IMG/VR virus record: IMGVR_UViG_3300034152_000240
Span: 1 to 23,589 of that record
Source: a virus
Length of the DNA stretch: 23,589 bases
Reading direction: 5' to 3' (one strand)
Shown: positions 224-23,589 of the stretch, piece by piece
Layout of the letters: each line of letters opens with the position of its first letter
Position numbering within the stretch: position 1 is the stretch's first letter
Program-made: the position numbers and the translations under genes
The notes under the pieces: generated by a model
Seen by the model: the letters and a program-made list of their open reading frames with translations, nothing else
Database searches by the model: none
Told to the model about the DNA's origin: nothing

Positions 224-678
224 TAGGAGAAAGAGCTACACAGCTTGTCCTCAGAACTTTTCATACGTCAGGATCAGCAATAATTAAAGGCGAGAAGAAA
301 TCTGAAGACATGAGACAACAAGATATTATTGGCGATCTCTCTACAGTTTCTTCAATTCTTCACAAGTTCAAAGGAAAAACTGAATCCGAAATTGTTGATG
401 AGTTATTTGATGTCTACGACAAAGATATACATCACGTACATTATGAATGTGTCGTAGCACAGCTAATGTGGTCTGGCTCAAGAAAATGGAGACTTCTACC
501 AGATCGGGATAAACAGAAACCTGAATTCTATAGCGTTCAATCAGTACCAAACCAAGAAAGTTGGATACTCTCAATGGCATTTTCAAATCCGAAGAGAAGT
601 ATTCTTCAAGGAATTCTTTACGAAGGAAGATATTCCGGTGTGCTAGATAAAATCTTAAAGGGGGAAGTAATCACGTGA
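170..678 (+). CDS. RNA polymerase beta' subunit, C-terminal part (5' end lost or inverted)
   Basis: This is the C-terminal end of a multisubunit RNAP beta' chain. The frame reads GIIAAQTLGERATQLVLRT then FHTSGSA at about 202-280. That is the trigger-loop region (E. coli [21 protein letters not shown]), with the catalytic Arg and His kept and the Met replaced by Leu. Downstream, HVHYECVVAQLMW and ESWILSMAFSNPKRSIL correspond to the conserved C-terminal segments around VIVRQML and SFQETTRVL. From the trigger loop to the stop there are only about 160 residues, far fewer than in E. coli, so the insertion typical of proteobacteria is absent. Upstream codons are open to 115, with stops at 106-108 and 112-114, but 115-169 is the inverted piece. 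The first ATG is at 310, inside the conserved region, so it is not the real start. The stop overlaps the beta start by 4 bp (GTGA), so the two subunits are translationally coupled. Confidence 0.93.
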
Positions 679-4008: not shown

Positions 4009-4208
4009 GTGGATATGATTACTATTCAACATCAACATCATCAAATTCATATTCTACAGCTCAATGGCAGATAGGTGGGATGACTATATATTATAAACCT
4101 ACGATGTATTTTACAAAAACAGAATATAGTGAACCACAAGAAAAGATAGAGAAATTTGATCCGCAAGAGTTAGATATCAATTGGGAAATAAGGAGGGATC
4201 CTATATGA
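4005..4208 (+). CDS. Unknown 67-aa Ser/Thr/Tyr-rich protein with KFDPQEL motif
   Basis: A short protein joined to its neighbours by ATGA overlaps at both ends: 4005-4008 with the gene before and 4205-4208 with FolE2. The first 25 residues are almost entirely Ser, Thr, Tyr, Asn and Gly. The middle, around residues 20-40, has alternating aromatic residues (IYYKPTMYF) that look like beta strands. The C-terminal third is acidic and holds EKFDPQEL, nearly the same as KFDPKEL in the preceding protein. There is no strong ribosome site before the ATG, so translation probably depends on coupling. Function unknown. Confidence 0.65.
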   Translation: MSGYDYYSTSTSSNSYSTAQWQIGGMTIYYKPTMYFTKTEYSEPQEKIEKFDPQELDINWEIRRDPI

Positions 4209-5116
4209 CACCTCTTCCAGATGTTCAATGCACTGAACCAAAAATATTAAGACCAATCAATCAGGTTGGTGTTGAAAATGTCGAAGTACCTTTCAAACTT
4301 GAACTTAGAGCTGGAGGATTTATTGAACTAGTGGCAAAAGTTTCAATGAGGACAAGTCTTGATGAAGACCTGAAAGGTATTTCGATGTCTAGATTTCTGC
4401 GAACGTTAAAGAAATATTTACACAAACCTCTGAAAAGAGTTCTAATCAAAGAAATTCTTCGAGACTTTAAGAAAAAGGTTGGTGGAAATTCAAGTTTTAT
4501 TAAATTCAATTTCAAACTACCGATAGAAAGAAAGTCTCCGATATCAGAATACACATTTCCTATTTATTACGATTGTAGATTTGAAGGACAGCTTATTGAG
4601 TCTGATGACTTTGTAGAAACTGGTGTCATTGCTTCAGTAGAAAAATTTAGATTCTTTCAGGGAATGAAAATACAATACGCATCTTATTGCCCATGCTCAG
4701 CAGAACTTTGCAATCACTTGGGTGAGAAGGGTACGTGCGGGTTTCCTCATAATCAGAGATCTTTCGCTGAAATCTTGATTGAGTCGTATGACGACGAACT
4801 TGCACTCATTGCTGGTTATGATGAGGTTCCTTATATATGGCTTGAAGATATTATTGAGGCCGTTGAAATGCAACTCAAAACTCTACCTTACCCAATAATT
4901 AAAAGAGTAGATGAACAAGAGATTGCAAGAATTGCAGCGGAAAATCCGATGTTTGTCGAAGATGCAATAAGATCAATCTCTGCTATACTTGACTCTTTTC
5001 CAATCAAAGACTGGATTGTAAAATGTGTTCATGAAGAATCAATTCATACTTCGGAAGCAATTGCAGTCAATTGGGCAGGTATACCAGGAGGCTTTGATGG
5101 CACCCGTTTTATCTGA
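4205..5116 (+). CDS. folE2: GTP cyclohydrolase IB (FolE2 family)
   Basis: Predicted to convert GTP to 7,8-dihydroneopterin triphosphate, the first step towards folate and towards queuosine or other 7-deazaguanine compounds. The 303-aa protein is slightly longer than usual for the family (about 260-300). It carries the family signature along its length: LPDVQ at residues 4-8, INQVGV at 18-23, KGISMSRF at 57-64 (bacterial KGTHMSRF), CPCS at 162-165 with the metal-ligand Cys, PHNQRS at 181-186, ENPMFVED at 246-253, and ESIHTSEA near 278-285. Between CPCS and HNQRS there are a few extra residues with two more cysteines (C169, C177). The ATG at 4205 is chosen because AAGGAGG lies 8-15 bases upstream and it forms an ATGA overlap; a TTG at 4181 would sit before that ribosome site. 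No other folate or deazaguanine gene is visible in the window. Confidence 0.95.
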   Translation: MTPLPDVQCTEPKILRPINQVGVENVEVPFKLELRAGGFIELVAKVSMRTSLDEDLKGISMSRFLRTLKKYLHKPLKRVLIKEILRDFKKKVGGNSSFIKFNFKLPIERKSPISEYTFPIYYDCRFEGQLIESDDFVETGVIASVEKFRFFQGMKIQYASYCPCSAELCNHLGEKGTCGFPHNQRSFAEILIESYDDELALIAGYDEVPYIWLEDIIEAVEMQLKTLPYPIIKRVDEQEIARIAAENPMFVEDAIRSISAILDSFPIKDWIVKCVHEESIHTSEAIAVNWAGIPGGFDGTRFI

Positions 5117-5543: not shown

Positions 5544-6308
5544 ATGAACGAAAACCTATCCGCAATGGTACAAGACGCACAACCGGAGGAAAACGAAGAG
5601 GACATCACAATACCCGAAGATGTTATTGAATCAGTAGATGATGAAACAGGAACACATGAAGCTATTGAAGAAACTCCAGCCGTTGCAAAAGTTGGTATTA
5701 CATCACTGACTGACTGGTTTCGCAGAAACCATGAAAGATTTGATAATATCAATTACGTTCGTGTTTCTATTCGAGGAGTAGATCCAGATAAATACCTGAT
5801 CGTAACTTCCCCAGAAGATGACGGATCAGTAGACGAGGAAGGTAACCCTCGCCGCAAACTCAAAGTATTTGAAAGTGCTGACTCTCATCCCGTTCTTGAT
5901 CTACCGGGAAGCGCGATGGAAGCATTTAACAATGGAACCTTTATGGTTCTCTATCAGTACGCCGACACTGATATTGTATTCAAGTGTTATGGCATTCGTG
6001 CAGGACTTATTGTTGTAGCATGTCAGAATGTTGACGGAGCATTAATACCATATAATATACAGCGCGTAAAGAAAAGAGATACTGAAATTGAAATTCCAGT
6101 TTTTGATGGGTCAGACCCAAGAGTAAAATTAGCGCAAGACCTTGACAAAGAAGTATTACAATTACTTTATCGTCAGAGTTCGAAAGAAGTTGATAACTTC
6201 ACCACAAATCAGGATGCTGTGAATTGGCTGGTTGGAAGACAAGCTGAAATGATTGACATCAATCATTTACTTCAAATTGATAATGTTCTTCTAAGTCTAA
6301 TTCGATAG
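5544..6308 (+). CDS. Unknown 254-aa protein with acidic N-terminus
   Basis: Not recognised. AAAAGGAG just upstream gives a strong ribosome site, and it overlaps the end of the preceding gene. Residues 10-45 are very acidic (EENEED and similar) and probably disordered. The rest looks like a compact alpha/beta domain with beta-rich segments such as YVRVSIRGVDPDKYLIV and FMVLYQYADTDIVFKCYG. The C-terminus is helical. No transmembrane segment or catalytic motif is visible. It is the last gene before the 6314-6349 hairpin region. It could be a virion or DNA-associated protein. Confidence 0.75.
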   Translation: MNENLSAMVQDAQPEENEEDITIPEDVIESVDDETGTHEAIEETPAVAKVGITSLTDWFRRNHERFDNINYVRVSIRGVDPDKYLIVTSPEDDGSVDEEGNPRRKLKVFESADSHPVLDLPGSAMEAFNNGTFMVLYQYADTDIVFKCYGIRAGLIVVACQNVDGALIPYNIQRVKKRDTEIEIPVFDGSDPRVKLAQDLDKEVLQLLYRQSSKEVDNFTTNQDAVNWLVGRQAEMIDINHLLQIDNVLLSLIR

Positions 6309-6313
6309 CACAT

Positions 6314-6349
6314 GGAGGCGGGGGCCATTAAGTTGGCCCCCAAAAATAA
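6314..6349 (+). promoter_or_regulatory. Hairpin between a Shine-Dalgarno and the start codon at 6350
   Basis: GGAGG at 6314-6318 is a strong Shine-Dalgarno but lies 31 bases before the ATG at 6350, too far to act directly. Between them is a perfect 8-bp, GC-rich stem (GGGGGCCA at 6320-6327 with TGGCCCCC at 6334-6341, loop 6328-6333). Folding the stem leaves 9 bases between GGAGG and ATG, a near-ideal distance. No other ribosome site lies close to this ATG. Phage T4 gene 25 is known to use a structured RNA spacer in this way. The hairpin is followed by A-rich rather than T-rich sequence on the plus strand, so it is not a canonical terminator of the upstream gene. Confidence 0.6.
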
Positions 6350-7084
6350 ATGAAAATAAACCCAGACATCAAACTTGTTTCACATGACATACAATCCTAC
6401 GATATTCCATCATGTCACTACAACATATTAAAAGCACACGGTTTTGATCTTTCAGAAATTGATAAAGAAGATAAATTAAAGCGCAACATAACCATCGGTA
6501 AAATGATGAGGGCAAACCCAAGAATAACAAAACTTCTTCGAGAAACAACTAAGTCTTTAATTGACGAATTCATATTAAATAACAATATCCAAGATTCCGA
6601 TATTGTTATAAGACAATATGATGGTCTTCTTCTTAAAAGGGCTGTGAAAAATATGGAAATCGGTAACATGAGGATTGAACATAGAAACAGTTTTGATGTC
6701 TTTATTTCATCTATCAAGAGAAATATGTACATTGCTTATGACTCTGTAAGAGGACAGACCAAAATAAAAGGTGTTTCTCATCGCTATGAGGCAATGGATG
6801 AAATGTACGAAAAAATTTGTAAAATTAACTTTGCAAAGAAAACTGCTATATTTCGTTCACTTCAAAGGTTATACGATTTTTTTATGACCACAGAAGATGC
6901 CGAGCTTTTTGCAATACCTTCAGATAATGATAGATTTTTATTTTATGTGGTTAAATATGGAGAGTTTGAAGTGACAAGACCCACCATTGGAATCATGGAT
7001 ACGAGTGATATAGATCGAAAGAGATATTTTGATTTTTATCTCAAACCTTTTACACAAAGCATTGTATTGGAGCACGTCAAATGA
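6350..7084 (+). CDS. Unknown 244-aa protein
   Basis: Not recognised. The start is the ATG after the 6314-6349 hairpin. The N-terminus has SYDIPSCHYNIL near residues 15-26, followed by basic helical segments and VIRQYDGLLLKRAV around residue 85. A central stretch (FDVFISSIKRNMYIAYDSVRG) precedes KGVSHRYEAMDEMYEKI. The C-terminal part, FAIPSDNDRFLFYVVKYG, looks beta-rich. No signal peptide or membrane segment is visible. It overlaps the next gene by ATGA (7081-7084), so the two are probably made together. An enzyme of nucleic-acid metabolism is conceivable but not shown. Confidence 0.8.
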   Translation: MKINPDIKLVSHDIQSYDIPSCHYNILKAHGFDLSEIDKEDKLKRNITIGKMMRANPRITKLLRETTKSLIDEFILNNNIQDSDIVIRQYDGLLLKRAVKNMEIGNMRIEHRNSFDVFISSIKRNMYIAYDSVRGQTKIKGVSHRYEAMDEMYEKICKINFAKKTAIFRSLQRLYDFFMTTEDAELFAIPSDNDRFLFYVVKYGEFEVTRPTIGIMDTSDIDRKRYFDFYLKPFTQSIVLEHVK

Positions 7085-8024: not shown

Positions 8025-8946
8025 AGCAGAGGAAATGGGTCTTCAGGTTTTAGATGCAATCAATGGAATATATCGCTACGGTGACAAATTTGGATCTGTG
8101 ATATATCGACAACTATTTACAGGTTCACATTATGTACAAGATGTTGAGACATTTGATGGTATAGATACATCACAAGTAGAAATACCATATCTCGCAGTGT
8201 TCACACGAGGACCAGAAGAAGAAGAGCACAAATATTGCGGGATTGTTTCACGAATATACCGCTTTATCGGTAATGAGATACTCAATAATATTGTACGCGA
8301 ATCAGTTCGTAATACAGGTATGCCTGTTGTAGCGGAGAATACCTATCTATCAGATAAACGCACAATGATGAGAAACGAATTCATCATGAGCAACTCAGCG
8401 AGAACCAAAGTTGGCGACGTTCTACCTGTAGTTGTAATTAGAAACAGCTATGATGGAACGTGGGCGCAAGCCATGCAATTTGGTATTAACTTTCCACATT
8501 ACGAACTTTCATTTGCTTTTCGTATGGGAGAGGTTCGCCAGATTCATGTGGCTGGAGCCACTACATCTATGTCATCTTTTATGGAAGGTTACTTTAACAC
8601 TTTTGCTGACAACATCAGCAACGTTCTGAGAGATAGCTTTGAAAAGCAATTCACAGAAGAACAATTAATGTCACTACTTGATATAATTGAAGATACCGGA
8701 AAGAGAAAGCGTAGAGGAATATCGGAAATAATCCAAGAAGTCACACCAGAAGGCCAGGTTCTCCCATCAGCATGGCATGTATTCCTTGCAATTGTGCGCT
8801 ACACAAGCACAGAACCAAACTTGAACACAAAAGCGATACTGGAAAATATCGCGGAGAGCGTCCTTGTGATTCCTACTCGTATGGCATCAGTTATGGAAAG
8901 AATGAGTCGAGGAATTCTTCCAGAAGGACAAGAAGATGCAGCATAG
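8005..8946 (+). CDS. DUF932-like protein, 313 aa
   Basis: The start is GTG at 8005, with GGAGG six bases upstream inside the preceding gene. The central part resembles DUF932 phage/plasmid proteins: KYCGIVSRIYRFIGNEI near residues 72-88, then a segment ending KVGDVLPVVVIRNSYDGTWA around 133-153, which matches the family's 'GD..p.l.v.NSyDGs.a' pattern from memory. DUF932 proteins are common on plasmids and large phages; their role is not established. The C-terminal third is helical and charged (DTGKRKRRG). The gene ends just before the 8947-8985 terminator. The family call is moderate; the existence of the gene is not in doubt. Confidence 0.6.
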   Translation: MITFGSRAEEMGLQVLDAINGIYRYGDKFGSVIYRQLFTGSHYVQDVETFDGIDTSQVEIPYLAVFTRGPEEEEHKYCGIVSRIYRFIGNEILNNIVRESVRNTGMPVVAENTYLSDKRTMMRNEFIMSNSARTKVGDVLPVVVIRNSYDGTWAQAMQFGINFPHYELSFAFRMGEVRQIHVAGATTSMSSFMEGYFNTFADNISNVLRDSFEKQFTEEQLMSLLDIIEDTGKRKRRGISEIIQEVTPEGQVLPSAWHVFLAIVRYTSTEPNLNTKAILENIAESVLVIPTRMASVMERMSRGILPEGQEDAA

Positions 8947-8985
8947 AAATAAAGGGTGTCATATTTTGGCACCCTTTATTTTTTT
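8947..8985 (+). terminator. Intrinsic (Rho-independent) terminator
   Basis: A 14-bp stem (8947-8960 with 8968-8981, one T-G wobble) around the loop ATATTTT, followed by T residues to 8985. It starts at the base after the stop codon of the DUF932-like gene. The A-rich left side and T-rich right side mean it could work partly in both directions. It closes the RNAP and accessory block, so the hub gene at 9027 probably has its own promoter in the 41 bases between. I cannot identify a promoter there. Confidence 0.9.
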
Positions 8986-9026
8986 GCCAAGCGAGAACAA
9001 ATTTATAGTAAAAGGAGATTATTGCG

Positions 9027-10292
9027 ATGCCAGAAGAACAACAAGGATATAAGCAGTCAAGGACCTATGAGATTATTGTCAGAATCAAAGAGCTAGAATA
9101 TACTGCGGATTTAATCTCTTTAAGAATCGTGGCGTCTCTGTCAACTGGTTATGATATCGTAACGTTGACATTTTCTGTTGATCCAGACGATATGATACTT
9201 GAGGACGTTTTTGGTGGAGAACCAATCAAACTTACTATAAATCAAATGGGAGATGATAACGTCCCACTCGACGGACTTGAATTTGAACTTATGGTTCTTG
9301 AATCTGATTTACCAATGTTTGAAAGAGTTGTTGATGACAATCAAGCTCAAAGAACTCGCGTATCAATACCATTTACGGCTGTTGATCGCAATGCTTACAA
9401 AACCGTTTCAAGTATTGTAAATGGTGTTTATCTTGGGCAGAATTTAAACTCAATTGTCAGCGACCTTTTGAGTCAAACCAACACAGGATTAAGATTGAGA
9501 TTTGATTCAAACGGTAGAAACAATGAAGTGATCGACCAAGTGTGTATTCCCCCAACAACATTTTATAATATTATCAAAGAATATGACAAAACCGATCTAT
9601 ATCCATTTAACGGGTTCCTTGATAGAAGGTTCGGGCTTTTTAACGGTGTCCCTGCCGTCTATGTGCAAGGGCAATACGTATACATAAAAAATCTAAGCGC
9701 AAAATTAAAACAAAATCAAGCGTATACTGTTTATCAGTTGAACGCGGGAAGTAAAAATACAGATGATATTATTGAGCGAAGTACTGATGGAAAAACGTTT
9801 TACACGTATGATCAGATTAATACAAAATATGCAGGGAATGCAAAACTCGGAGCTTTGGGGTCCACTATCAATCACATTGATAAACCCTCAAAAACATTAT
9901 TTACAACCGTTCGAAACGATTTAGAAACTATTGCTCAAAATAATTCTTTGACATTTCAAGGGGGAAAATTATTTAGAGATTCTGCAATTCAGAGAACACG
10001 TTATATATTTACTGATACAGGATTTGAAGAAAACCCGCAACTAAAATATCAATCCCACTACGGAAGAAGCATGGGTGATATCTCTAGTATAAACTTTAGA
10101 ATGGAAAGGGCGTTGCCGCTTCTTAATCTGTTAAAAGTGGGCGAATGCGTCAAGTTTAAACCTGAGAATGTGGTCTATGCTGAATTTGGTGGGAAATATA
10201 TTCTATATAGTACATCTCTTGAGTTTGCAAGACGTGGAGGTTGGTCTTCAGTTGCTACTGTTAATTTAGTCCGCACAAACAGGAAAATATGA
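9027..10292 (+). CDS. Baseplate hub protein candidate (gp27-like)
   Basis: Probably the hub protein at the centre of the baseplate. AAAAGGAG precedes the ATG. The 421-aa protein has the layout of hub proteins such as T4 gp27: an N-terminal beta-rich domain (TYEIIVRIKELEYTADLISL onward), a middle segment with YLGQNLNSIVSDLL and then IPPTTFYNIIKEYD. This 'short helix, then ip..t.y..i...yd' pattern is common in hub and late-control proteins. A C-terminal beta domain ends in GGWSSVATVNLVRTN. No lysozyme domain is fused to it. Neighbouring terminase, tape measure and tube-cap genes support a tail role. Identification is by pattern and context, not by strong identity. Confidence 0.6.
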   Translation: MPEEQQGYKQSRTYEIIVRIKELEYTADLISLRIVASLSTGYDIVTLTFSVDPDDMILEDVFGGEPIKLTINQMGDDNVPLDGLEFELMVLESDLPMFERVVDDNQAQRTRVSIPFTAVDRNAYKTVSSIVNGVYLGQNLNSIVSDLLSQTNTGLRLRFDSNGRNNEVIDQVCIPPTTFYNIIKEYDKTDLYPFNGFLDRRFGLFNGVPAVYVQGQYVYIKNLSAKLKQNQAYTVYQLNAGSKNTDDIIERSTDGKTFYTYDQINTKYAGNAKLGALGSTINHIDKPSKTLFTTVRNDLETIAQNNSLTFQGGKLFRDSAIQRTRYIFTDTGFEENPQLKYQSHYGRSMGDISSINFRMERALPLLNLLKVGECVKFKPENVVYAEFGGKYILYSTSLEFARRGGWSSVATVNLVRTNRKI

Positions 10293-11973: not shown

Positions 11974-12870
11974 ATGGAAAAAGTTAATGAGTTGGTTGCT
12001 ATTAAAAGAGGTGGAGGTAGAGTTGTTAAGATTGACAATATGACCTTCTATTCTTCTGATAGGTTAAACGATCTAGTTGAAGAATCATTTAAGAAATCTT
12101 CAATAACAAAACCAGTTGCATCAAAATTACGAGAACTAATTGACCGTGATTTAATTATCCCTGTATTCTCAACAAAGAATATGTTGCACTTTATTTATAG
12201 AAAAGTTTTTCAACCAACTGAATACGAGTACACTTCTGGTTTCTGGACTCCCAAAATAAGAAAAGTTTTTCTGTTAATTGATTCAAATGTTAATGTTTTG
12301 GGTTATGCGACCAACACGTTAATTGCGAAAGTTTTGATTCACGAACTAATGCATGTTTATGCACATATGAAACCTAATCAATATATAAATTTTTTTCAAG
12401 ATGAATTGGTAGCATTCTATAAAACATATTGGGGATTAATATCAGGAAATAAAGAAATCCCAGATAGAAATATAATGAATATTCTACAATACATGAGAAA
12501 AAGTTATGATAATATCAAAGGCCCCAATACAACGATAGGTCGTATGGAAGCTAGCTATAAAAATATTATTGATAAAGAAATTACCCCCTTTGCGAAACGA
12601 GAGAGCGAAATATATGAAAAATTGATTAAGAATTTCTTTTTGGCACTAAGACTTTACTTTATAAGTCCGATGGCTTTCAGAAGAAACTACGATCACCCTG
12701 ATATTCGTTCGGTTATTTCACCGCTATTAATTACATATAGAGATCAACTGAATATTGGAATACCAAAGTTATTATGTGTTCAAGAACTCATCTTTCCATC
12801 AGAAGTCATTGCTGTATTTGCTGCATCAGCCTATCCAAACAAAGTTTATTCAGCAATCAAGCAATTGTAA
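11974..12870 (+). CDS. Putative zinc metallopeptidase (HExxH), 298 aa
   Basis: Residues 121-131 read LIHELMHVYAH, a clear HExxH zinc-binding motif (H123, E124, H127). Glu144 (in FQDELVAFY) lies 17 residues after H127, in the range expected for a gluzincin-type third ligand, and H131 is another candidate. The residues before HExxH (NTLIAKVL) look helical, as required. The rest is helical with no signal peptide or membrane segment. The start is 3 bases after the terminase stop, with AGGGAG upstream. Phage structural regions often encode a maturation protease, but the usual prohead proteases are serine enzymes, so substrate and role are open. One motif does not prove activity. Confidence 0.6.
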   Translation: MEKVNELVAIKRGGGRVVKIDNMTFYSSDRLNDLVEESFKKSSITKPVASKLRELIDRDLIIPVFSTKNMLHFIYRKVFQPTEYEYTSGFWTPKIRKVFLLIDSNVNVLGYATNTLIAKVLIHELMHVYAHMKPNQYINFFQDELVAFYKTYWGLISGNKEIPDRNIMNILQYMRKSYDNIKGPNTTIGRMEASYKNIIDKEITPFAKRESEIYEKLIKNFFLALRLYFISPMAFRRNYDHPDIRSVISPLLITYRDQLNIGIPKLLCVQELIFPSEVIAVFAASAYPNKVYSAIKQL

Positions 12871-12885
12871 GGAGATATAATATAG

Positions 12886-15800
12886 ATGGCTAAAAAGAAG
12901 GATACTCCTCCAAACACTCGCAGATTAGAGGAAAATGCGCGAGAAGCATCTGAGTTTCGTGCCTCAAGAATTAGCACACTCAATCAAACAATGGTAGATG
13001 TTGAGCAAGAGGCAAAGAAACGCACTCGTATGATTAATGATGAGCTAGATGTCATAACGCGCCAGCAACGCGAAGCTGTCAAGATGCTTGGAAAATCCGA
13101 TAAGCAATTAACTGGTGAAACAGCAAAAGGGCTAAATGAAGTAATCGGGCATCTTGGTCAAGCAATGGGTAACTTTGCGACTGGAATTGGAAGAGTTACC
13201 ACACAAACCTCAAGAGCAACAACTCAAGCTATCTCGCAGTATGGTAAGGCTATTGGCGAAGACATCAATATTAACAAACAAAATACAGTGGCAATGGCAT
13301 TATCAACTGCTGCTCCTTTGTTTGGATACTTTGCATCAAAATTTATGGAGACCTCCGTCTTCAAAGATGCGTCTAGAAATATTCAACAGTCCGTTGCAGG
13401 TGCTTTCAGAAAAGGACTATCTTCTGTTACTGGAGCTTTTAGAAGAAAGGGTGGTGGAGGTGGTGGCTACACTGAAGAAGAATTAGAATTAGAACTTTCG
13501 AATCTTAGACGGCCTCCAAAAATGCAAGCTGGTGGATACGTAAAAAAGGGTGGTCTTATTGAAGCTCATGCTGCTGAAGTCGTTACACCAGTAGAGAAAA
13601 TCTTTACACAATTTCAAAGTATGAACGCAGAACTAGTAAAGGCAATGAGAAGCCCACTCAATCGTGCTGCGAGAAGTCTGAAAGAGATTAAAGAACACTC
13701 TGCTGAAAGCATAGAGAATTCAAAGAAGGTCGTTTCAAATCTAGCAGAGCTTAGATCAGTTCTTATTGGAACAACCGATCAGATCAAAGTCTCTTGGCAA
13801 GCAATGTTAAATGAGAACCCATTCTTTAGAAAAGTTCTAAAGATGGCTGAGGTTCTTAATACCGTTGTCGTATCACCTATTAAATGGCTCTTCGGAATGC
13901 GGGGCGGGTATCGAGGAATGGCAACAAGAGCCACTGCGACAAGTAATGTATTTCTAAAGATTTCTAATATGCTTCAGTTGATCTTTGGTCAGCTTATGCC
14001 AAAAGTTGATCGTGTCATTGAAATTCTTAATCGCCAGTTAGAATATATGACAGGAGAACGCGTTCCTGAAATTAAAGGGCGTGGAACCTACACGATGTTT
14101 GGTAAGATTAAAGAATTCTTTACAACAAGATCAATTCAAACGGCTGGCGAAACTGTGTTTGATTCTGTCGTAGATGCTCTTCGACTTGATCGATCAGCAC
14201 TTGAAGAAGCAGGAATTACATCAATTGGTGATTTTCTTATGCCTCACCGATGGGTGAAAAATATGGGCGTAACTCGCGAAAATATAGCCAGTAAATTAAA
14301 GGGAAAAGGTGAAGGAGGAATTGGAGCAAGACTTGCTTCTGTCGTAGAAAGAGAAAAATCGTTTAAAGAAGCAGCCAAAGAGCAGACAGAAGTTATAAAA
14401 GAATCCGTAGCCAGGGTTAATGAAAACATAAAAGAATCAAAAAAAGTATTAAAGGAGCAGCATGAAGAGAGAATAAGTGTTGCTCAAGAACATTACCAAG
14501 CAACTTTGAAACGTGCAAAAATGAGCGAAGAACAACAAGAAAAAATAAGTGAAATAATGGAAACTTGGAAAGATCAATCTCTAACTATAGGGAAGAAATC
14601 TGTTGATGCCTCAAAATTTGTAGGGAAGAAAGTTGGTGGGTTAGGAAAAACCTATGTCAAACAAACGACTAGATTAATCAGTGGAATTGCAAGACGGATT
14701 AAGAAACTTGTTCCTCGGCTGGGAAGTATGCTCTTAACAATGTTCAACATATTATCTTTTACACTTGGTAATATGTTGAGAGCCATTGGTAAGATTCTTA
14801 TTCCTATTGCAAGCTTTTTAGGATCTGGAATTATGAGAATGCTAGCTGCTGGACCTATAGGGATATTGAAAGGGGCAGGGTTGATGGCAGGTGGAATGGC
14901 GGCTGGCGCAGCAGGACTTACAATGGGAACCATTGATGCATTTAGAGGTTTTGGCAGAGCAGAAGAATGGGGGGTTGGAAGAGGCGCAGCAATGGCCGGA
15001 GCATTCTTTGGAGGTGTCGGCGGGGGAACTCTTAAATCAGCAGCTTGGGGTGCTGCAAAGGGTGGTGCTCTTGGTGCAGCAATAGGATTAGTTGTTCCTG
15101 GTGTTGGACCAGCCATCGGCGGAGCTGTTGGTGCTATTGCTGGTGCCATTCTTGGATTTGTAGGTGGAAAGAATATTTCAAAAGCTTTTAGTGCAATTGG
15201 AAAGGAAATTACAAAAGTGGTTAAAGCTGTTTGGAAAGTTGTCACGTTTCCAATTAAACTTCTCTATCGTGTTGCAAAAGGTATCATAAAAGGATTCTAT
15301 AGAATCTTCAAATTTCCTATCAGTTTAATTGCTAGATTTGTTAAATGGTGGGTTGGAAAGGTTTGGAGTGTTATTACTTGGCCACTTGTTAAAATTTTGT
15401 CTCTATTTGGTATTCAAACCGGACCAAGTGAGCTTGGCGATTGGATTGCAGAGAAAATTGCATGGCTATGGAAAGCGATCACAGCTCCTGTGCGAAATTT
15501 CTTTACAATGGTAAACAATATAATGGATGCTGCTGATAAAGGAACTCAGAATCTTGATGAAATGATAGCCGACGCTATGTACAATGTAGTTACGTGGCCT
15601 TTGAGAAAGCTTGGAGAACTTCTCACAAAATTAAAAGATTGGATAGTAGAAAAAATAAGCCCCATCGCAAGTTTCTTTGGTATTGACCTTGGGGTTGAAG
15701 AATCTCCAAGAGAGGGACCATCACCAAAAAGTGATGTCGGTAGAGCATTTCGAAATCAAAGAAATGTTGAAACAATGACGACAGCCGCAGAAATTGCTGC

Positions 15801-16005
15801 GGGTAAGAACGTAGGTAAGAAAATTGTTGATGCAATTAATGAATCATCAAAAACATCAACGGCAGCAGTTATTGCTAATAGCAGTAGAATAATTGCATCA
15901 ACAAGTCAAGTAATCAATCAAAACAATAATAATGTAGGAGGAACATCTCCAGGAATGGGCAATACAATAGCGACAGAACAAATCCTGCTTTCTGGTATGA
16001 TGTAA
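12886..16005 (+). CDS. Tail tape-measure protein
   Basis: This 1039-aa protein sets tail length and is thought to be released during DNA injection. TAAGGAGATA, where TAA is the stop of the previous gene, precedes it. The N-terminal 120 residues are helical and charged. Six consecutive glycines lie at 189-194, followed by GGYVKKGGLIEAHAAEVVTP (216-235), a 'GGYV..G...H..EVV' element common in tape-measure proteins. Coiled-coil-like Glu/Lys-rich helices fill about 480-580. Around 640-770 there is a very hydrophobic Gly/Ala stretch of glycine-zipper type (GAAIGLVVPGVGPAIGG), suited to membrane insertion, followed by Trp-rich amphipathic helices. At about 0.15 nm per residue this would allow a tail near 150 nm. 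The next gene is a tube-cap candidate, as in T4 (29 then 48). Confidence 0.88.
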   Translation: MAKKKDTPPNTRRLEENAREASEFRASRISTLNQTMVDVEQEAKKRTRMINDELDVITRQQREAVKMLGKSDKQLTGETAKGLNEVIGHLGQAMGNFATGIGRVTTQTSRATTQAISQYGKAIGEDININKQNTVAMALSTAAPLFGYFASKFMETSVFKDASRNIQQSVAGAFRKGLSSVTGAFRRKGGGGGGYTEEELELELSNLRRPPKMQAGGYVKKGGLIEAHAAEVVTPVEKIFTQFQSMNAELVKAMRSPLNRAARSLKEIKEHSAESIENSKKVVSNLAELRSVLIGTTDQIKVSWQAMLNENPFFRKVLKMAEVLNTVVVSPIKWLFGMRGGYRGMATRATATSNVFLKISNMLQLIFGQLMPKVDRVIEILNRQLEYMTGERVPEIKGRGTYTMFGKIKEFFTTRSIQTAGETVFDSVVDALRLDRSALEEAGITSIGDFLMPHRWVKNMGVTRENIASKLKGKGEGGIGARLASVVEREKSFKEAAKEQTEVIKESVARVNENIKESKKVLKEQHEERISVAQEHYQATLKRAKMSEEQQEKISEIMETWKDQSLTIGKKSVDASKFVGKKVGGLGKTYVKQTTRLISGIARRIKKLVPRLGSMLLTMFNILSFTLGNMLRAIGKILIPIASFLGSGIMRMLAAGPIGILKGAGLMAGGMAAGAAGLTMGTIDAFRGFGRAEEWGVGRGAAMAGAFFGGVGGGTLKSAAWGAAKGGALGAAIGLVVPGVGPAIGGAVGAIAGAILGFVGGKNISKAFSAIGKEITKVVKAVWKVVTFPIKLLYRVAKGIIKGFYRIFKFPISLIARFVKWWVGKVWSVITWPLVKILSLFGIQTGPSELGDWIAEKIAWLWKAITAPVRNFFTMVNNIMDAADKGTQNLDEMIADAMYNVVTWPLRKLGELLTKLKDWIVEKISPIASFFGIDLGVEESPREGPSPKSDVGRAFRNQRNVETMTTAAEIAAGKNVGKKIVDAINESSKTSTAAVIANSSRIIASTSQVINQNNNNVGGTSPGMGNTIATEQILLSGMM

Positions 16006-17247: not shown

Positions 17248-18356
17248 CAAATCTGATTTCGCAATACGAGCGTTATATAATATGCGAGAAATTTCTGAAT
17301 TAGAAATTTTGTTTGAGAAGTGAGTTTATCATATCGTGGTTTTTCCTCAGTTTTCTTCAAAACCCCATTAAGCAAAACTTCTACTTGTTGTTTAAAATAA
17401 ATCTTAGCTGTGGTTCTCTTAATAGACATCAAGTTATCAACTCTTTTATAAAAATCTTCTCCACATATCTCAGAAACCTTAGTGACTTCACGAATAAACA
17501 ATTGAAGAACAGTACGAATGTTATCTTGCAAACCGACATCAGTTAATCCCTGAATTATTGTCTGCGCTGTACCCACATTTATCTTTGATCTTTTACGTGC
17601 TTCGTCTCTCGCCTTATTATCAATAAATTTATAAACGGTAATCTTACGAGCAATTTCTGCAACAAGACGATTTGTCTTATCAGGTGTCTGAATTTCTGAA
17701 GGTTTCCCCTCTTCATCTGAAGGAAGCTCTTCTGCGCTTATAGATTTTCCCTGTGCAGAAGCCTTCATATATGTATTTACAAAGCTCTTTACGCTTTGAG
17801 ATATTCGACTTCTAGTATCTTGAATAAAAAGAGAAACTTTATCTAGATCCCAATTCTTTAACCCCTGTTTCCAACGATTTGCCATAGCTTTAGCTATGAA
17901 ATAAAGTGCGTTTGCAATCGTTTTCTCTCGGTGAAAAAGATGTGTTTTCGTAAGAACTTGGAATGTATAATTAAACACACCAACATCACAAAACTTCAGT
18001 TGCTTCTTTAGAAGATTTGCATAATGACGAATAACATACAAAACCATCATGGTAAGGTAACTTCTTACGTCATTTTTTCTTAGGAAATAATGAAGCAAGA
18101 ATACGTACATCATTGCAACCTTATCATTATGTAAAGAAAATTTTGCTTCTTTTCTACCACTCCAAGTTCTCTTAGTAAATGCTTTCAAATCTTCCTCAGT
18201 TAGATTCGTATACTTTAGAAATTCATAGTACACTCCCTTCACACTTGGGTAGTAACAAGGCTCAGCCAATTTGCCAAGTTCTTGCGCAACCGTACGAGAT
18301 ATAATCTGTTTTAATTTTGTCTCATTTATTTTTGCTTTTTCTAATAATTCTTTCAT
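17244..18356 (-). CDS. Unknown 370-aa helical protein at the end of the minus-strand block
   Basis: Not recognised. The protein is basic and looks mostly alpha-helical, with a charged, Pro/Glu-containing linker near residues 205-230 (SAEELPSDEEGKPSEIQ) that may separate two helical domains. Helical stretches such as VAMMYVFLLHYFLR and YLTMMVLYVIRHYANLL are hydrophobic, but they are interrupted by charges and are more likely buried helices than membrane segments. It overlaps the gp6-like gene by ATGA and meets the plus-strand gene tail-to-tail with a 4-bp overlap. As the last gene of the baseplate block, a structural or assembly role is plausible. Confidence 0.75.
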   Translation of the reverse strand: MKELLEKAKINETKLKQIISRTVAQELGKLAEPCYYPSVKGVYYEFLKYTNLTEEDLKAFTKRTWSGRKEAKFSLHNDKVAMMYVFLLHYFLRKNDVRSYLTMMVLYVIRHYANLLKKQLKFCDVGVFNYTFQVLTKTHLFHREKTIANALYFIAKAMANRWKQGLKNWDLDKVSLFIQDTRSRISQSVKSFVNTYMKASAQGKSISAEELPSDEEGKPSEIQTPDKTNRLVAEIARKITVYKFIDNKARDEARKRSKINVGTAQTIIQGLTDVGLQDNIRTVLQLFIREVTKVSEICGEDFYKRVDNLMSIKRTTAKIYFKQQVEVLLNGVLKKTEEKPRYDKLTSQTKFLIQKFLAYYITLVLRNQIC

Positions 18357-20824
18357 ATGATAGTCACCGAAATGTTGTCCTCCGTAAAATATACAAACTC
18401 TGGACCATATAATAAGAGTTGATCTTCTGTAAGTTCTTCAAGTTGGAAATTGAAAAAGATACCAGTCTCGGGTTTAATTAAACGACAATGATCAACACCG
18501 TCAACTTCCTGGACAACGTCAATTATCTCTGATCGGTATATTGTAGCATTTGCTCCAAACCTTGATTTGAACGTTTCATACACCGCAGAACGCACAGCTT
18601 GGGCCAATGCACTAAAAGTTCCAGCATAAGAAGATGATCTAAAAACTTCAATTTGTACATCTAACGGTATATTATATTCTGGAATTGGTATCCACCCACC
18701 AACTTCTGCAAATATATACTTTGCTGCTTGGTTCGTTACATATATAATATCGTCTCCATTTGGTTGAGAATATGTAAAAGTAACATTAGTAGAATCTGTG
18801 CAAGTTATGATTGCATTTTTATTTTCACCAGATGAAAGAATATATCTATCACCTACATTGCAGGAAAGAGGTTCTGATGTAAGTATATCAATTACATTAC
18901 TCTTAGTAGTTTCATTTAAACCCATATTGGTTAGCTTGCCAAAAGCATTTGTAAACTTCACATTAGCAAAGTCCGTTAGCATCTTTCTACTTGCAAGATC
19001 AATTGATGAAACAACCTTTTGTAGAACATCAGATTCAAAATCTGTTTTTGATACGCCATCATAATAATCTTGTTCAATAACTGGAATATCATAGATAATT
19101 ATATTAGAACCATCTGGTGCTGTAGCGGTATTAGAAATCATGAAGTTATCAAGACTGCTTCTCAGTGTTACATCAACTTGGTAGTCAGCAACAATATTTG
19201 CACTTGGATCAAAAATTCTAAAAATTAGATCTTGTGAATCAGAAGGAAAATTAGTATAAGGATTAAATGTATATGTAAAAACACTAGCTGTTGCATCGTT
19301 CGTCATATTTTTTACGGATCCGGTAATGGTATTTCGAAGTTCGCATGTAGCTAGTGATGCATTTGATTCTTCTGATTGATACTGCAATTCAAAAATAGCA
19401 GAATTACCAACCTTTTGAATACTAAGTTGCGTAGCAATAATATCAAATGTTGAAGTATAACTTGTCTGTAAAGTAGGCGTTAGTTCTAATTCAAGAAAGG
19501 TATAATCATATTCAGCCGCAGAATTAAGCAAATCAATTGTCAGATCAAAAAGTGTATAATAATCTACTCCTCGGTGTGTTATGGTTGTTCCTCTCGGGAT
19601 AAATGTAACCGACGGATCAATTGTATAGGTAACATTGCGAGTCGGCACTAAATTATCAACTGTTTCTGTTTCAGAACCAAAGAGTAGATTTGTGAAAATC
19701 TGAATTTCATTAATCTTAATATCAGATCGCTTAAGCACAGGTAGAGCATTAGCTGCAAATGGCGAATCTGGTATAATTGTGCTTATATTCTGATAATCAC
19801 TCTCTGAAACTAATCTATTTAGCGCTGTCAGAGATGCAATTGAATTTGCCCTAATTTCTTCAATAGATTCTTCGTCTTCTCCATTTGTAGCGGGAGAAGT
19901 ATTCGTGACGGTATAATCTACAACTTGAACTGTCCCAGCTAGAGTGGTTGTGTATATTCTATCACCAGTTCTAATTGTTCCTGCAATTACATTTCCACCA
20001 GCTCCCTGAGTGATACCAGTTGTTACAAGTACCGTTGACCCAGGTTCCGGTTGAACTCCGATTAGATTATTACCAAAGAACAAACGAATTCCGCTTGACG
20101 TTCTTCTTGCTACATAACCCTCATCAGTATTTGACATTAAATAAAGACTGTTAAATTCTGTCCATGTCGTAAATCCAGCCGACCCAGGTTCTTGTATCTG
20201 AACTGTTAAAGTAGAAATCTGACCGTCAAATGGAACATCAAGAGTTACAAATTGAAAATCTTGAACGTCATCATCAATCTGAAATTCCTGCTCTAAATTA
20301 CTTATCTGTCGAACAGGTAAAACAAAATAAAGGTTTCCGCCACTTATTGTAATCGGCAATGTATATCTTTTGTTTCCTTCTACCAACGTGGCAGTAGCAG
20401 ATGTATTATTTGTAACCTCAACTGTTACTGTATAATAGGTAGTAAACTCAATTCCATCTTCAGTCTTTAATGTAAAGTCTTCAGGAATAGTGAACGTTAC
20501 ATTTGGATCTGTAAAAGTCAAAGGAAATGCCATCAAAACATTAGCTGTTGAAAATTGTGCATCTTGAGGGTTATAACCTAGAAAAGCAGAAAGATTAAGA
20601 ACAGATTCTTCAAGTTGTGCTGTAGTCATGAAGAATTCACGATAAGTTGAAACTTGATAGAATAAAAGGTTTCCTGTCAGTGTAGAAACAATATCTATAA
20701 TGAATGACAGAAAAGAAGATTTCGTAAGATCCACGTTTTCAAGTTCTAAGTACTCTTTGATCAAATCGCTGATCTGTCTACGAATTGAATCTCTTGATAA
20801 ATATATCTGGTCTGATAATGCCAT
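18353..20824 (-). CDS. Baseplate wedge protein, gp6/gpJ-like
   Basis: The 823-aa protein belongs to the baseplate-J/T4 gp6 group, which forms the wedge ring that triggers sheath contraction. Diagnostic parts: GNLLFYQVSTYREFFMTTA and LEESVLNLSAFLGY (51-84), typical of the N-terminal arm; GIRLFFGNNLIGVQPEPGS then TQGAGGN (245-278), the 'FG...G..P..G' and 'G..GN' signature; and GEDEESIEEIRANSI then NRLVSESDYQNI (315-347), the classic 'G.D.ES.EE.R' plus 'AV...DY' region. The middle, about 400-600, is extended with beta-rich Ser/Thr-rich sequence and is probably an insertion. The C-terminus has the expected 'D.V..V..VDGV' element (IDVVQEVDGVDHCRL). AAAAGGAAAG precedes the ATG. Confidence 0.88.
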   Translation of the reverse strand: MALSDQIYLSRDSIRRQISDLIKEYLELENVDLTKSSFLSFIIDIVSTLTGNLLFYQVSTYREFFMTTAQLEESVLNLSAFLGYNPQDAQFSTANVLMAFPLTFTDPNVTFTIPEDFTLKTEDGIEFTTYYTVTVEVTNNTSATATLVEGNKRYTLPITISGGNLYFVLPVRQISNLEQEFQIDDDVQDFQFVTLDVPFDGQISTLTVQIQEPGSAGFTTWTEFNSLYLMSNTDEGYVARRTSSGIRLFFGNNLIGVQPEPGSTVLVTTGITQGAGGNVIAGTIRTGDRIYTTTLAGTVQVVDYTVTNTSPATNGEDEESIEEIRANSIASLTALNRLVSESDYQNISTIIPDSPFAANALPVLKRSDIKINEIQIFTNLLFGSETETVDNLVPTRNVTYTIDPSVTFIPRGTTITHRGVDYYTLFDLTIDLLNSAAEYDYTFLELELTPTLQTSYTSTFDIIATQLSIQKVGNSAIFELQYQSEESNASLATCELRNTITGSVKNMTNDATASVFTYTFNPYTNFPSDSQDLIFRIFDPSANIVADYQVDVTLRSSLDNFMISNTATAPDGSNIIIYDIPVIEQDYYDGVSKTDFESDVLQKVVSSIDLASRKMLTDFANVKFTNAFGKLTNMGLNETTKSNVIDILTSEPLSCNVGDRYILSSGENKNAIITCTDSTNVTFTYSQPNGDDIIYVTNQAAKYIFAEVGGWIPIPEYNIPLDVQIEVFRSSSYAGTFSALAQAVRSAVYETFKSRFGANATIYRSEIIDVVQEVDGVDHCRLIKPETGIFFNFQLEELTEDQLLLYGPEFVYFTEDNISVTII

Positions 20825-20836
20825 TATGCTTTCCTT

Positions 20837-21487
20837 TTATACAAAATAGAATCCAGAATTATCGTCAAAAATTGCAGATAATGAATCTTTTAATTCTGAA
20901 TGTTTGACAAGAATTCGGTTAATACATTGTGCATCTTCTAATAGATGGATCTTCTTATCATATTCTGTAAATGACAGAATCCGAGAAACAGACTGATCGA
21001 GTTCGTCTGTTGTTCGGCTTTGAAAATTTTTAACGTTCAACTTCCAGAATCTTCTATCAGTGTTTGGAAATATCTCAACCCCCTCAACTCTGAATACTGG
21101 ATATATATCATTTGTTGGTCGAAGAAACTCTTGTTCTAATTTTATCATATCTCCTGGATAAGGTGTAAAGCCGTATGTACTTGGTATCGTAAATGAACTC
21201 ACGTTATCTTTTATATAACCTATATCTTGACCATCAAATGCCGTTGAAATTTCATCTGAATAATAAACTGGTAATAGGAGAATCTTCTCCCATTTAATCC
21301 CAGAGAGATCGCCAATATCGTGATATGGGCCACCAAAAACCTTTTCATCTTCCCATATTGTTTCTTCCTTATCAATATGGTAATATGTCGTGAGAAAGGC
21401 GACAACATGATTTGAGTATACTTCATAGAGCATCTTTTGATACTCGTGAATATAGAAGTACAACCTTTCATATTTTTGTAAATACAT
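20837..21487 (-). CDS. Unknown 216-aa virion-type protein
   Basis: Not confidently recognised. The ATG overlaps the upstream stop by one base (TAATG). The N-terminus is helical (KYERLYFYIHEYQKMLYEVY). A loop-rich region follows (GGPYHDIGDLSGIKWEKILL), then PSTYGFTPYPGDMIKLEQEF, with a C-terminal helix. A compact domain with 'P..GD' and 'V..VE.....YWKL'-like strands is also seen in phage neck and connector proteins such as T4 gp14, but the resemblance is too weak to name it. Its place between gp6-like and gp25-like genes favours a baseplate or tail role. Confidence 0.7.
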   Translation of the reverse strand: MYLQKYERLYFYIHEYQKMLYEVYSNHVVAFLTTYYHIDKEETIWEDEKVFGGPYHDIGDLSGIKWEKILLLPVYYSDEISTAFDGQDIGYIKDNVSSFTIPSTYGFTPYPGDMIKLEQEFLRPTNDIYPVFRVEGVEIFPNTDRRFWKLNVKNFQSRTTDELDQSVSRILSFTEYDKKIHLLEDAQCINRILVKHSELKDSLSAIFDDNSGFYFV

Positions 21488-22695
21488 TATCTACCTGCCT
21501 TCATTCTGCGAAGTTTTGAAAGTCTCTTATCTAAAATTTCTTCGTATTTATGCTTGGACTCAACAGCCCTTTGTCTCCAGTCTTCTAACATATTTAAAAC
21601 TTTCTTTTTACATTTAAGAGGTTTTTTTGATTTATTACATTTTGTCACCTGACTTTGCAAGAATTTTACAGCATATTGTCTTCCTTCATATCTACATTTT
21701 CTGTAGCAGAAATCTCTATCTTTATCTCTAATACAACTTTTCATACAGGCAAAGTCATGTTTTTTAATTATATAATTAACCACATCATTAAAGAAAGGAA
21801 TAGGTAATAGCCACAAACCAAGATATAAAACAATGCGAACTTTCTTTTCCATTTCTGGATTTACCTTTGGTTGATCTACATCTTGCTCAAATATTTTTTG
21901 TGAGATTTTAGTAGCTGATTCTTCAGGGATTCTCTTTATAGCGGAAAATAATGCAAGATGTTCGGGGAACGATAAATTTTTTCTAATAACCGAACTTTCA
22001 GAAATTAAATGCATCAATAAAAGATGATCTAAAGATAGACTTTCATAAGGAACTGCTGAAGTTGGTTTTCTCAACTCCTTTGATGCTTTCTTCGATAACT
22101 CTTTTGCCTTGGCCTGTCTTGCAACATCTTCAATAGCAGCCTTTGCTTTTTCAAGTCGCGATTTCTGTTGTTGTAGTTTCTTCTCCCATTTGACTAAATG
22201 TTTTCTTAATTTCTTTTTACATTTATCTTCGCGTTTATCTTCAAATTGATTACATTTACCAAATTCAGATCTAAGCCGTCTAACTATTCCCTGTGTTGCC
22301 TTATACTGGCATTCATACTTACATACATTTCTTTCTTTTCCTCTTCCAAATCTGTTAAAGCATTGGCGATAGCAAGGATCATTTAACTTTCTCCATGAAT
22401 ATAAAACTAGAGGGCCAAGTAGTGGAGCAGCAGGACCAGCCGCACCAGCCGCAATTATTGAAAAAGAATACTTTAGAAATTTTCTAAAAGCTCCTTCAAA
22501 TTCACGAATTCCTTCTTGCATAATTTCAAAAACTTCATCTTCTGGTAAACTTCTAATTTCTTTACACAGCGCAATGTGCTCTTTAAATGTAGTTCTTTCT
22601 TTAATATACTCGCTATGAATTGCAAAGCGAATTAATTGTTTTCTTCCAATATCAGCAAAAAATTGTCTTTTAATTTTATCCATTCTTAACCTCAT
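21487..22695 (-). CDS. Duplicated twin-CX3C cysteine-rich membrane protein
   Basis: Family not recognised. The 402-aa protein consists of two related halves, roughly 20-185 and 226-395. Each half has a helical FxEHxALxxxIxxxPE element (FKEHIALCKEIRSLPEDE and FPEHLALFSAIKRIPEES), a hydrophobic segment (74-98 and 287-304), then six cysteines. In half 1 they are C108-x3-C112-x12-C125-x3-C129-x18-C148-x10-C159. In half 2 they are C317-x3-C321-x8-C330-x3-C334-x18-C353-x8-C362. A lysine-rich coiled-coil-like helix follows each set. The x3 and x18 spacings are identical. Such pairs could bind metal or form disulfides. The ATG at 22695 overlaps the gp25-like stop (ATGA); ATG at 22683 with GAGG upstream is an alternative. 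A virion role follows from context only. Confidence 0.8.
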   Translation of the reverse strand: MRLRMDKIKRQFFADIGRKQLIRFAIHSEYIKERTTFKEHIALCKEIRSLPEDEVFEIMQEGIREFEGAFRKFLKYSFSIIAAGAAGPAAPLLGPLVLYSWRKLNDPCYRQCFNRFGRGKERNVCKYECQYKATQGIVRRLRSEFGKCNQFEDKREDKCKKKLRKHLVKWEKKLQQQKSRLEKAKAAIEDVARQAKAKELSKKASKELRKPTSAVPYESLSLDHLLLMHLISESSVIRKNLSFPEHLALFSAIKRIPEESATKISQKIFEQDVDQPKVNPEMEKKVRIVLYLGLWLLPIPFFNDVVNYIIKKHDFACMKSCIRDKDRDFCYRKCRYEGRQYAVKFLQSQVTKCNKSKKPLKCKKKVLNMLEDWRQRAVESKHKYEEILDKRLSKLRRMKAGR

Positions 22696-23126
22696 GTGGC
22701 CTCAAGAAATGATCCGAACGTATCTTGATCAAAATCAATAGATAGTTCTCCTGTAACTCCTCTATATGAGACTTCTACGTTAACATTAAAACCTTTGAAA
22801 TTACTAAAGTATGTGACCTCAAGATTTGTTATAGACGCACGATCATCATATCTCAAAAGTGTATCTTCAACTTCATTTTCAATTAGAGAAATAGTCTCTT
22901 CATCGGCTGGTTCAAAGACAAGACGGTATAGCTCGCTACCATACTCTGGATCAAAGATATATGTTCTTCTTGGAGTTTGAAGAATATTGTTCCAAGAATT
23001 TAAGATTACAGCCAATTCTGTAATACGTTTAAAATCGCCACTTGCCACGATCTTGCTTTGATAATCAGCTATCCTACCACCTGCTCCGCGAACCGCCGTA
23101 TTAAATCGATCAAGTAGGTTAGCCAT
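22692..23126 (-). CDS. Baseplate wedge subunit, gp25-like
   Basis: A 144-aa protein of the GPW/gp25 family, a small wedge component that helps nucleate the tail sheath in contractile phages. The core at 46-104 is typical: NILQTPRRTYIFDPEYGSEL, then LVFEPADEETISLIENEVE, then RYDDRASITNLEV. This fits the family pattern 'il.T..ger...pefGs.l...lFep.d......i...i...l...epRi.v..v'. The usual 'EPR' near the end is RYDDRA here. GAGG precedes the ATG. It lies immediately downstream of a gp26-like reading frame, the neighbour expected from T4. Confidence 0.92.
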   Translation of the reverse strand: MANLLDRFNTAVRGAGGRIADYQSKIVASGDFKRITELAVILNSWNNILQTPRRTYIFDPEYGSELYRLVFEPADEETISLIENEVEDTLLRYDDRASITNLEVTYFSNFKGFNVNVEVSYRGVTGELSIDFDQDTFGSFLEAT

Positions 23127-23135
23127 TTATAGTCC

Positions 23136-23390
23136 TCACCATCGTTTTTGTTTAAGCTCAATTTTGTGCTGTTCTTCTTCAATTTGTTTTCTTTTCTCTT
23201 CCTCGAATTCAGATTTCCATTTTAAATATTTCTGAAGCTTATTAACTGGCATTGCCATAATGTCAGTCCAAGATTGCTTGCTAAGTTCCATACATGCAAA
23301 AACATCTTCGTTAAGAGATTTAACATATTTCTCGACATCACTGTGCCGAGTACAATGAACGAAAAAAGCTTTCGACCAATTCAATGTCAT
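23136..23390 (-). CDS. Downstream frame of a possible frameshifted gp26/gp51-like assembly protein
   Basis: This open frame ends at 23136. It encodes HSDVEKYVKSLNEDVFACME, then LSKQSWTDIMAMPVNKLQKY and a Glu/Lys-rich C-terminal helix. The sequence looks like a real helical protein. It overlaps the preceding frame by at least 53 bp. Its possible starts (GTG 23423, ATG 23402, ATG 23390, ATG at about 23294) all lack a ribosome site, unlike most genes in the window. It is in the +1 frame relative to the upstream gene, so it may be made as a fusion through a shift at the T6C site at 23361-23369. If translated independently, the ATG at 23390 is the shortest start that keeps the whole conserved-looking region. 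The 'I..MP...L..Y' tail resembles small phage tail or baseplate chaperones; the family is not certain. Confidence 0.55.
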   Translation of the reverse strand: MTLNWSKAFFVHCTRHSDVEKYVKSLNEDVFACMELSKQSWTDIMAMPVNKLQKYLKWKSEFEEEKRKQIEEEQHKIELKQKRW

Positions 23391-23589
23391 AAACGTCACC
23401 ATGACCACAAGACGAACACACACTCTTCATCTTAAGATCAATTCCATACTGACCAAATTCTTTTTCATAAGTAGAAAATATTGCTCTTTTATCTCTAGCT
23501 GGTAGAGTTAAAAAAGCATCAAGTATATCTTCTCTAGTTTTATATTTTAATGTTTCTTTACTATCCACAATATCTTGTTCAAAGCGATC
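23338..23589 (-). CDS. gp26-like baseplate assembly protein with zinc-ribbon-like C-terminus (partial)
   Basis: The frame is open to the right edge of the window, so the gene begins outside it; an in-window GTG at 23568 has no ribosome site and is unlikely to be the start. The visible 83 residues contain REDILDAFLTLPARDKRAIF, then EKEFGQYGIDL, then VCSSCGHGDVYDIELVESFF. The CxxCG followed by 'i.l...FF' is typical, from memory, of the end of T4 gp26-type baseplate proteins. The position next to gp25 fits this. Only one CxxC pair is visible. After SFF the frame runs seven more codons to a TGA; see the frameshift site. Confidence 0.6.
   Translation of the reverse strand, partial: DRFEQDIVDSKETLKYKTREDILDAFLTLPARDKRAIFSTYEKEFGQYGIDLKMKSVCSSCGHGDVYDIELVESFFRSLYSAQ
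23361..23369 (-). other. Candidate +1 ribosomal frameshift site (GC-TTTTTT-C)
   Basis: On the minus strand the codons are AGC TTT TTT CGT, encoding SFFR. The second TTT can slide one base forward onto TTC; both are read by the same phenylalanine tRNA, so pairing is kept. The new frame then reads GTT CAT TGT and runs on to the stop at 23136, giving ESFF-VHCTRHSDVEKYV. The normal frame ends at the TGA at 23340-23338. No obvious stimulatory structure was seen. A sequencing indel in the A6/T6 run (23362-23367) would give the same picture. Confidence 0.45.

Follow-up and report, generated by a model that had tools for sequence, protein, structure and literature searches.

Frameshifted tail assembly chaperones are a hallmark of long-tailed phages. 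In lambda, the short form gpG is accompanied by a frameshifted long form, gpGT, whose C-terminal extension results from a −1 slip just ahead of the tape measure gene. This G-T frameshifting scheme is described in a review as widely conserved except in T4 (PMC5009743), whose proteins gp26 and gp51, listed as hub assembly chaperones in a second review (PMC3004832), both belong to family PF12322 and are encoded by two separate, divergent genes with no shift, gene 26 directly preceding gene 25. The chaperone gene of Vandenendeviridae and Andersonviridae is reported to use a −1 shift at GTTTTT (PMC12846349). For six haloviruses of the HF1 group a TTT-CGC site has been proposed where the first tail chaperone CDS ends (PMC7230728), and the shift of HSTV-2 has been called very likely +1 (PMC5009743). 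Frameshifting of the +1 type at UUU_CGN is also known in influenza A PA-X and in plant amalgaviruses (PMC3498833, PMC5052127); UUU_CGU is a site studied experimentally in influenza PA-X, and CGN is, according to the PA-X paper, favoured over other CNN codons among putative sites.

Here we describe, from a poorly known group of large tailed viruses, a gene of the T4 gp26 family that, with a probability we put at roughly 0.88, yields a short and a long tail/baseplate-hub assembly protein by programmed +1 frameshifting at UUU_CGN. It lies at the edge of a window of 23,589 nt, which is the complete virus record IMGVR_UViG_3300034152_000240, so that the 5′ end of the gene is cut by the record edge and out of view. 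On the minus strand, the zero frame (23338..23589) encodes the C-terminal part (83 residues) of a gp26-family protein and closes with the codons GAA AGC TTT TTT CGT TCA TTG TAC TCG GCA CAG TGA, the stop occupying 23340-23338. The shift site TTT TTT CGT (23359..23367) comprises a preceding TTT (23367-23365), the P-site TTT (23364-23362) and the A-site CGT (23361-23359), the A6 run of the record at 23362-23367 being a T6 on the coding strand, with C23361 and G23360 next. An open +1 frame extends from 23426 past the zero-frame stop to a TGA at 23138-23136. A shifted ribosome would restart at GTT (23360-23358) and read a tail of 74 codons (codons 23360-23139 of the feature 23136..23360) arranged as a helix, a short helix and a long charged helix. 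If TTT(+C) is read as one step, a continuous product of 150 residues results, ending ...ELVESFFVHCTRHSD..., and the junction tryptic peptide predicted for a +1 shift ends ...ELVESFFVHCTR.

The comparative evidence derives from at least 245 related loci, drawn from seven first relatives, three viral scans (taking the best 80 of 192, the best 80 of 215 and the best 80 of 202 confirmed relatives) and one scan of genome contigs. The first seven were found with the gp6-like baseplate wedge gene of the window (18353..20824, minus strand; phrog_219, E 8e-29) as query; all show the same junction as the window, and the +1 tail is homologous in all of them. Dropping identical 180-nt junction stretches left 135 distinct junctions, window excluded, while duplicates were elsewhere removed by 270-nt or 330-nt stretches, so that the unique sets differ in size. 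These sequences are kin and the counts are not independent, for which reason cluster numbers are given: 131 aligned zero frames, with identity down to 26%, form 7 greedy clusters at 50% and 20 at 60%. The zero-frame fragment of the window is 46-68% identical to its first-round relatives. No close relative was found among 50,697 phage records, the best matches, at about 23% identity, being jumbo phages of Bacillus and Listeria, and a tblastn search of these records with the window's fused protein gave a best E of 3.

Two overlapping frames at AGC TTT TTT CGT, noticed in a preliminary description of the window, are indeed present there and recur in the relatives: in 134 of the 135 distinct junctions an in-frame TTT CGN lies in the overlap and is accompanied by an open +1 tail, for the most part without a usable start of its own, the traits by which UUU_CGN +1 sites are recognized in sequence. 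The locus thus shares with PA-X and the amalgaviruses the P-site UUU, the A-site CGN and the +1 direction, with no downstream structure found in the gp26-family gene, but it resides in another gene of a prokaryotic dsDNA tailed virus and would be read by another ribosome, whereas those two cases are eukaryotic RNA viruses. A sequencing or assembly indel could be imagined in the A6 homopolymer of a single contig; its probability is negligible, as 135 distinct loci from many metagenomes, not counting the window, show the same frame relation, which rules out an assembly error. None of these junctions contained a fused gene or a clearly separate second gene preceded by a ribosome site, arrangements that had been set against a shift at the outset. 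The comparative evidence thus supports the original proposal of a programmed +1 shift joining a gp26-like frame to a helical C-terminal domain.

The sole exception of the 135 is the most divergent member, L171, whose junction reads TTT TTT CAG and whose gp26 is only about 25% identical; it still has a +1 tail, which resembles the other tails (z 6.4, profile test). A scan with L171 as sole query found nothing. Among the other 134, the A-site codon is CGT in 63, CGC in 38, CGA in 18 and CGG in 15, and the zero-frame stop follows 4 to 7 codons past the slip codon in 132; complete tails (n = 131) span 63 to 84 codons. In L050, which belongs to an earlier set, the +1 tail has 43 codons and a different end (from 3001 onward), a real feature or an assembly effect; it is the sole complete but shortened tail among the members listed, those of L045 and L054 being cut by contig ends. 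The A-site CAG of L171, the 43-codon tail of L050 and the location of the gene, which does not immediately precede the tape measure as in lambda, are among the points against a +1 reading.

Codon choice at the slip site stands out from that of the gene as a whole. In 67 full gp26 genes (of 68; the window was left out since its gp26 is cut), the P-site Phe is TTT in 67/67 and the preceding Phe in 66/67, while the other conserved Phe columns contain 5-27 TTC. Among 103 conserved degenerate columns, these two vary least. At the A site all 67 genes have a CGN Arg codon, which is CGT or CGC in 58/67; elsewhere in the same genes Arg is AGA or AGG in 498 of 636 cases and CGT or CGC in 53. Over the wider set, the codon before the P-site TTT is TTT in 128 of 134 junctions and TTC in the remaining six. 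This modifies the initial suggestion of a slip on TTT TTT C: a +1 shift at that site is upheld, while the T run as its signal is not, only the second TTT and the CGN being invariant.

The same six sequences bear on two further ways of reaching the +1 frame. A −2 slip on the T6 run, with full re-pairing of the tRNA, would lead to the same frame with one extra Phe in the product and in the junction peptide, and T6 is present in 128/134; at the six TTC TTT CGN sites, however, it would place tRNA-Phe on UCU, and the A-site CGN is a property of UUU_CGN +1 sites, so that a −2 slip appears very unlikely. Slippage of the RNA polymerase on the T6/A6 run, generating mRNAs of varied length that ribosomes would read normally, is an even more improbable explanation. 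T6 is found in most members, and the window virus encodes an RpoB-like protein and might therefore possess a different polymerase; six members lack T6, however, and the invariant CGN would be left unexplained. A run of six is also short for polymerase slippage. In view of the six TTC TTT CGN members, both the −2 slip and transcription slippage on the T run were rejected as the general mechanism. From these patterns in the sequences we infer both the ribosomal shift itself and its +1 rather than −2 direction.

In the +1 mechanism we propose, most ribosomes would stop a few codons beyond the slip, giving the short form. While tRNA-Phe occupies a P-site UUU, slow reading of the CGN Arg codon in the A site would give time for a slip; some ribosomes would then move forward one base, tRNA-Phe would pair with UUC, and translation of the 63-84-codon helical tail would yield the long form. 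The anticodon of tRNA-Phe is usually GAA in bacteria. It would pair with UUU by wobble and better with UUC one base forward, so that the P-site codon would have to be TTT and the next base C. Such re-pairing alone leaves the choice of CGN over other CNN codons unexplained. CGN accounts for 164 of the 418 Arg codons of the window and is not very rare there. In-frame TTT CGN occurs seven more times in the 21 other window genes, at sites distributed over six genes between 675 and 16005, none of them TTT TTT CGN. About six occurrences are expected from codon use (279 TTT x 164 CGN / 7601); since the observed number is close to this, the motif is presumably weak, leaky at a low level, or dependent on context.

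RNAalifold applied to 20 sequences predicted no pairs downstream of the slip, and a conserved RNA structure was rejected as stimulator. Stimulation of the prfB type was rejected as well, the A site being CGN and an SD-like sequence just upstream of the slip being present in only 1/134.

The tail could in principle be a separate protein, made through re-initiation or from a start that is internal or unusual. In 74/134 members a +1-frame start codon does precede tail codon 20, and in 126/134 an ATG lies near a conserved Met; 60/134 have no ATG, GTG or TTG ahead of tail codon 20, and in 80/134 the +1 frame opens no more than 18 nt upstream of the tail's first codon. A ribosome site accompanies an early +1-frame start in 8/134 and the internal ATG near the conserved Met in 1/126, compared with 132/133 at the gp26 start, and the earlier remark that the second frame has no start bearing a ribosome site is thereby extended to the relatives. 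Selection on the tail also precedes the conserved Met: in 100 of 103 tails (complete, at least 60 codons), pN/pS is 0.58 from the gp26 stop to this Met and 0.42 beyond it, while the first tail stretch read in the two wrong frames gives 1.09 and 1.39, values that are rough because pS is near saturation. Independent initiation, which would leave the invariant TTT CGN unexplained, was rejected for the scarcity of ribosome sites, and a separate tail protein is highly improbable. An AF2 model of the tail of L002 is all helical (pLDDT 89.9). Searches for relatives of the tail gave Gag_p24 matches below cutoff in Pfam, weak matches throughout PHROG, a best E of 0.51 in a PDB sequence search and a best E of 0.3 in a viral fold search.

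The assignment of the zero frame to the T4 gp26 family is based on profiles, predicted structure and gene order. The window fragment alone matches weakly (PF12322, E 0.0041, below cutoff; phrog_150, E 0.0021). The full-length protein of the relative L005, read through the shift (P0003), aligns over residues 11-258 with positions 2-219 of the PF12322 profile (T4_baseplate; E 2.2e-11, 44 bits against a cutoff of 24.5), and L171 and L204 are also above cutoff; T4 gp26 and gp51 match the same profile at 9e-64 and 4e-52. Alignment by hhalign of ten T4-type gp26 proteins with the shifted-gene family gave E values of 1e-6 to 2e-7. With an AlphaFold model of the frame-0 protein of L002 (263 residues from an ATG start, pLDDT 87.6), 70 viral models were retrieved at E ≤0.001, with names including baseplate hub subunit and gp26, among them gp26 of Aeromonas phage 25 at E 8e-7; a PDB fold search with the same model gave no match to a solved structure (best E 0.25). 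Two CxxC pairs are invariant among 41 aligned members, which fits the zinc ribbon first suggested for this frame. The shifted gene is directly followed by a gp25-like baseplate wedge gene in the window (22692..23126, minus strand; PF04965, E 5e-10; phrog_261, E 4e-20) and in the seven first relatives, as gene 26 is in T4.

The relation to gp51 is less direct. Neither T4-type gp51 proteins against the shifted-gene family (hhalign probability 6-7%) nor the single sequences (T4 gp51 0.8%, T4 gp26 12%) gave a significant hhalign match, so the gp51 link runs via PF12322 and via gp26. In T4, PF12322 covers residues 1-206 of the 208 in gp26 and residues 1-201 of the 249 in gp51, which then continues as a C-terminal extension. 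Our own profile-profile comparison of this extension with the +1 tail scored 18.6, against a mean of 10.5 for shuffles, none of 2500 scoring as high, and a best of 15.5 among 84 decoy windows; hhalign assigned the pair a probability of 1.9%, and HMM searches fail to separate real from shuffled sequences. That the tail may be the counterpart of the gp51 C-terminus is suggestive only. RB43 and KLB15 have the tandem order 51-26-25, the names in RB43 being assigned by position and similarity, since its record names no function.

The finding is in our view genuine, and its reading as programmed +1 frameshifting is well supported; to this we would add, by inference, a chaperone role and a link to T4. 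Family membership suggests that the two forms would act as a tail-assembly chaperone pair like gpG and gpGT, likewise a short form and a frameshifted long form. The lambda slip is −1 and directly upstream of the tape measure; the shift described here is +1 and the gp25-like gene is next, the tape-measure-like gene of the window (12886..16005; phrog_167, E 1.3e-10) lying on the opposite, plus strand and not immediately following the shifted gene. The gene differs from the lambda type in both respects and may still work like G/GT. The HF1-group haloviruses come closer in that they too are tailed viruses with a tail chaperone pair, TTT CGC and a +1 direction, the HF2 sequence reading TTT CGC AGA TAG with the +1 frame continuing into the second CDS; their site, however, is located between tail tube and tape measure, unlike that of the gp26-family gene, and a profile test revealed no likeness between the second-frame domain of HF2 and the +1 tail (z 0.8). 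The chaperone of Vandenendeviridae and Andersonviridae likewise has a conserved shift with a T run at the slip, differing in its −1 direction.

It is tempting to think that one shifting gene does the work that T4 may give to the paralogous genes 26 and 51. In AR9 (L010, 4771-5073) and BpSp (L011, 4618-4911), both Bacillus jumbo phages, a gp26-like gene precedes a short helical frame that lies in the −1 register, is open across the junction and in AR9 is annotated from a non-ATG codon. This frame resembles the +1 tail (z 3.4, with 1 of 300 shuffles as high), and a −1 shift may occur at the corresponding position of the protein. A broader scheme, to which we give somewhat less than even odds, would have UUU_CGN as a compact, structure-free +1 signal on prokaryotic ribosomes, long fixed in this clade, in a shifting gene that does the work of T4 genes 26 and 51; the T4 pair would be a duplicated shifting chaperone gene freed from frameshifting, and AR9 and BpSp might arrive at a comparable tail through a −1 shift. 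A large clade in which +1 shifting is combined with a T4-family protein would connect the lambda and T4 schemes, make a strong comparative argument for UUU_CGN beyond eukaryotic viruses and provide a short testable cassette. We found no published gp26-family frameshifting with TTT_CGN in the open-licence literature, a scope outside which most subscription papers fall. For such genes, gene callers would annotate the short form alone and miss the long product.

Several other features of these genomes were observed. The window encodes a 1004-residue RNA polymerase beta-like protein (675-3689) that is nearest to bacterial rpoB models (E 6e-115), though far under their cutoffs. All three relatives from genome contigs (L169, L170 and L171) occur in MAGs labelled archaeal (Lokiarchaeota, Thermoplasmatales, Thermoproteota); the binning may be wrong, and since the RpoB-like protein is of bacterial type these labels do not settle the host. 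A GTP cyclohydrolase FolE2-like protein is encoded at 4181-5116 (PF02649, E 7.5e-58), and a protein at 11974-12870, with no NCBIfam or Pfam match, contains an HELMH stretch that we take to resemble a metalloprotease motif. Cys-/Lys-rich proteins with a repeated Cys pattern recur near the baseplate genes. The window has one two-part gene of this kind (21487-22695), for which Pfam and PHROG profile searches gave no family match; L005 has two (8063-9276), and other copies lie upstream of gp26, with positions in further relatives at 5726-6660 and 8124-9335 in L002, 820-1260 and 2705-3157 in L003, and 1-234 in L006.
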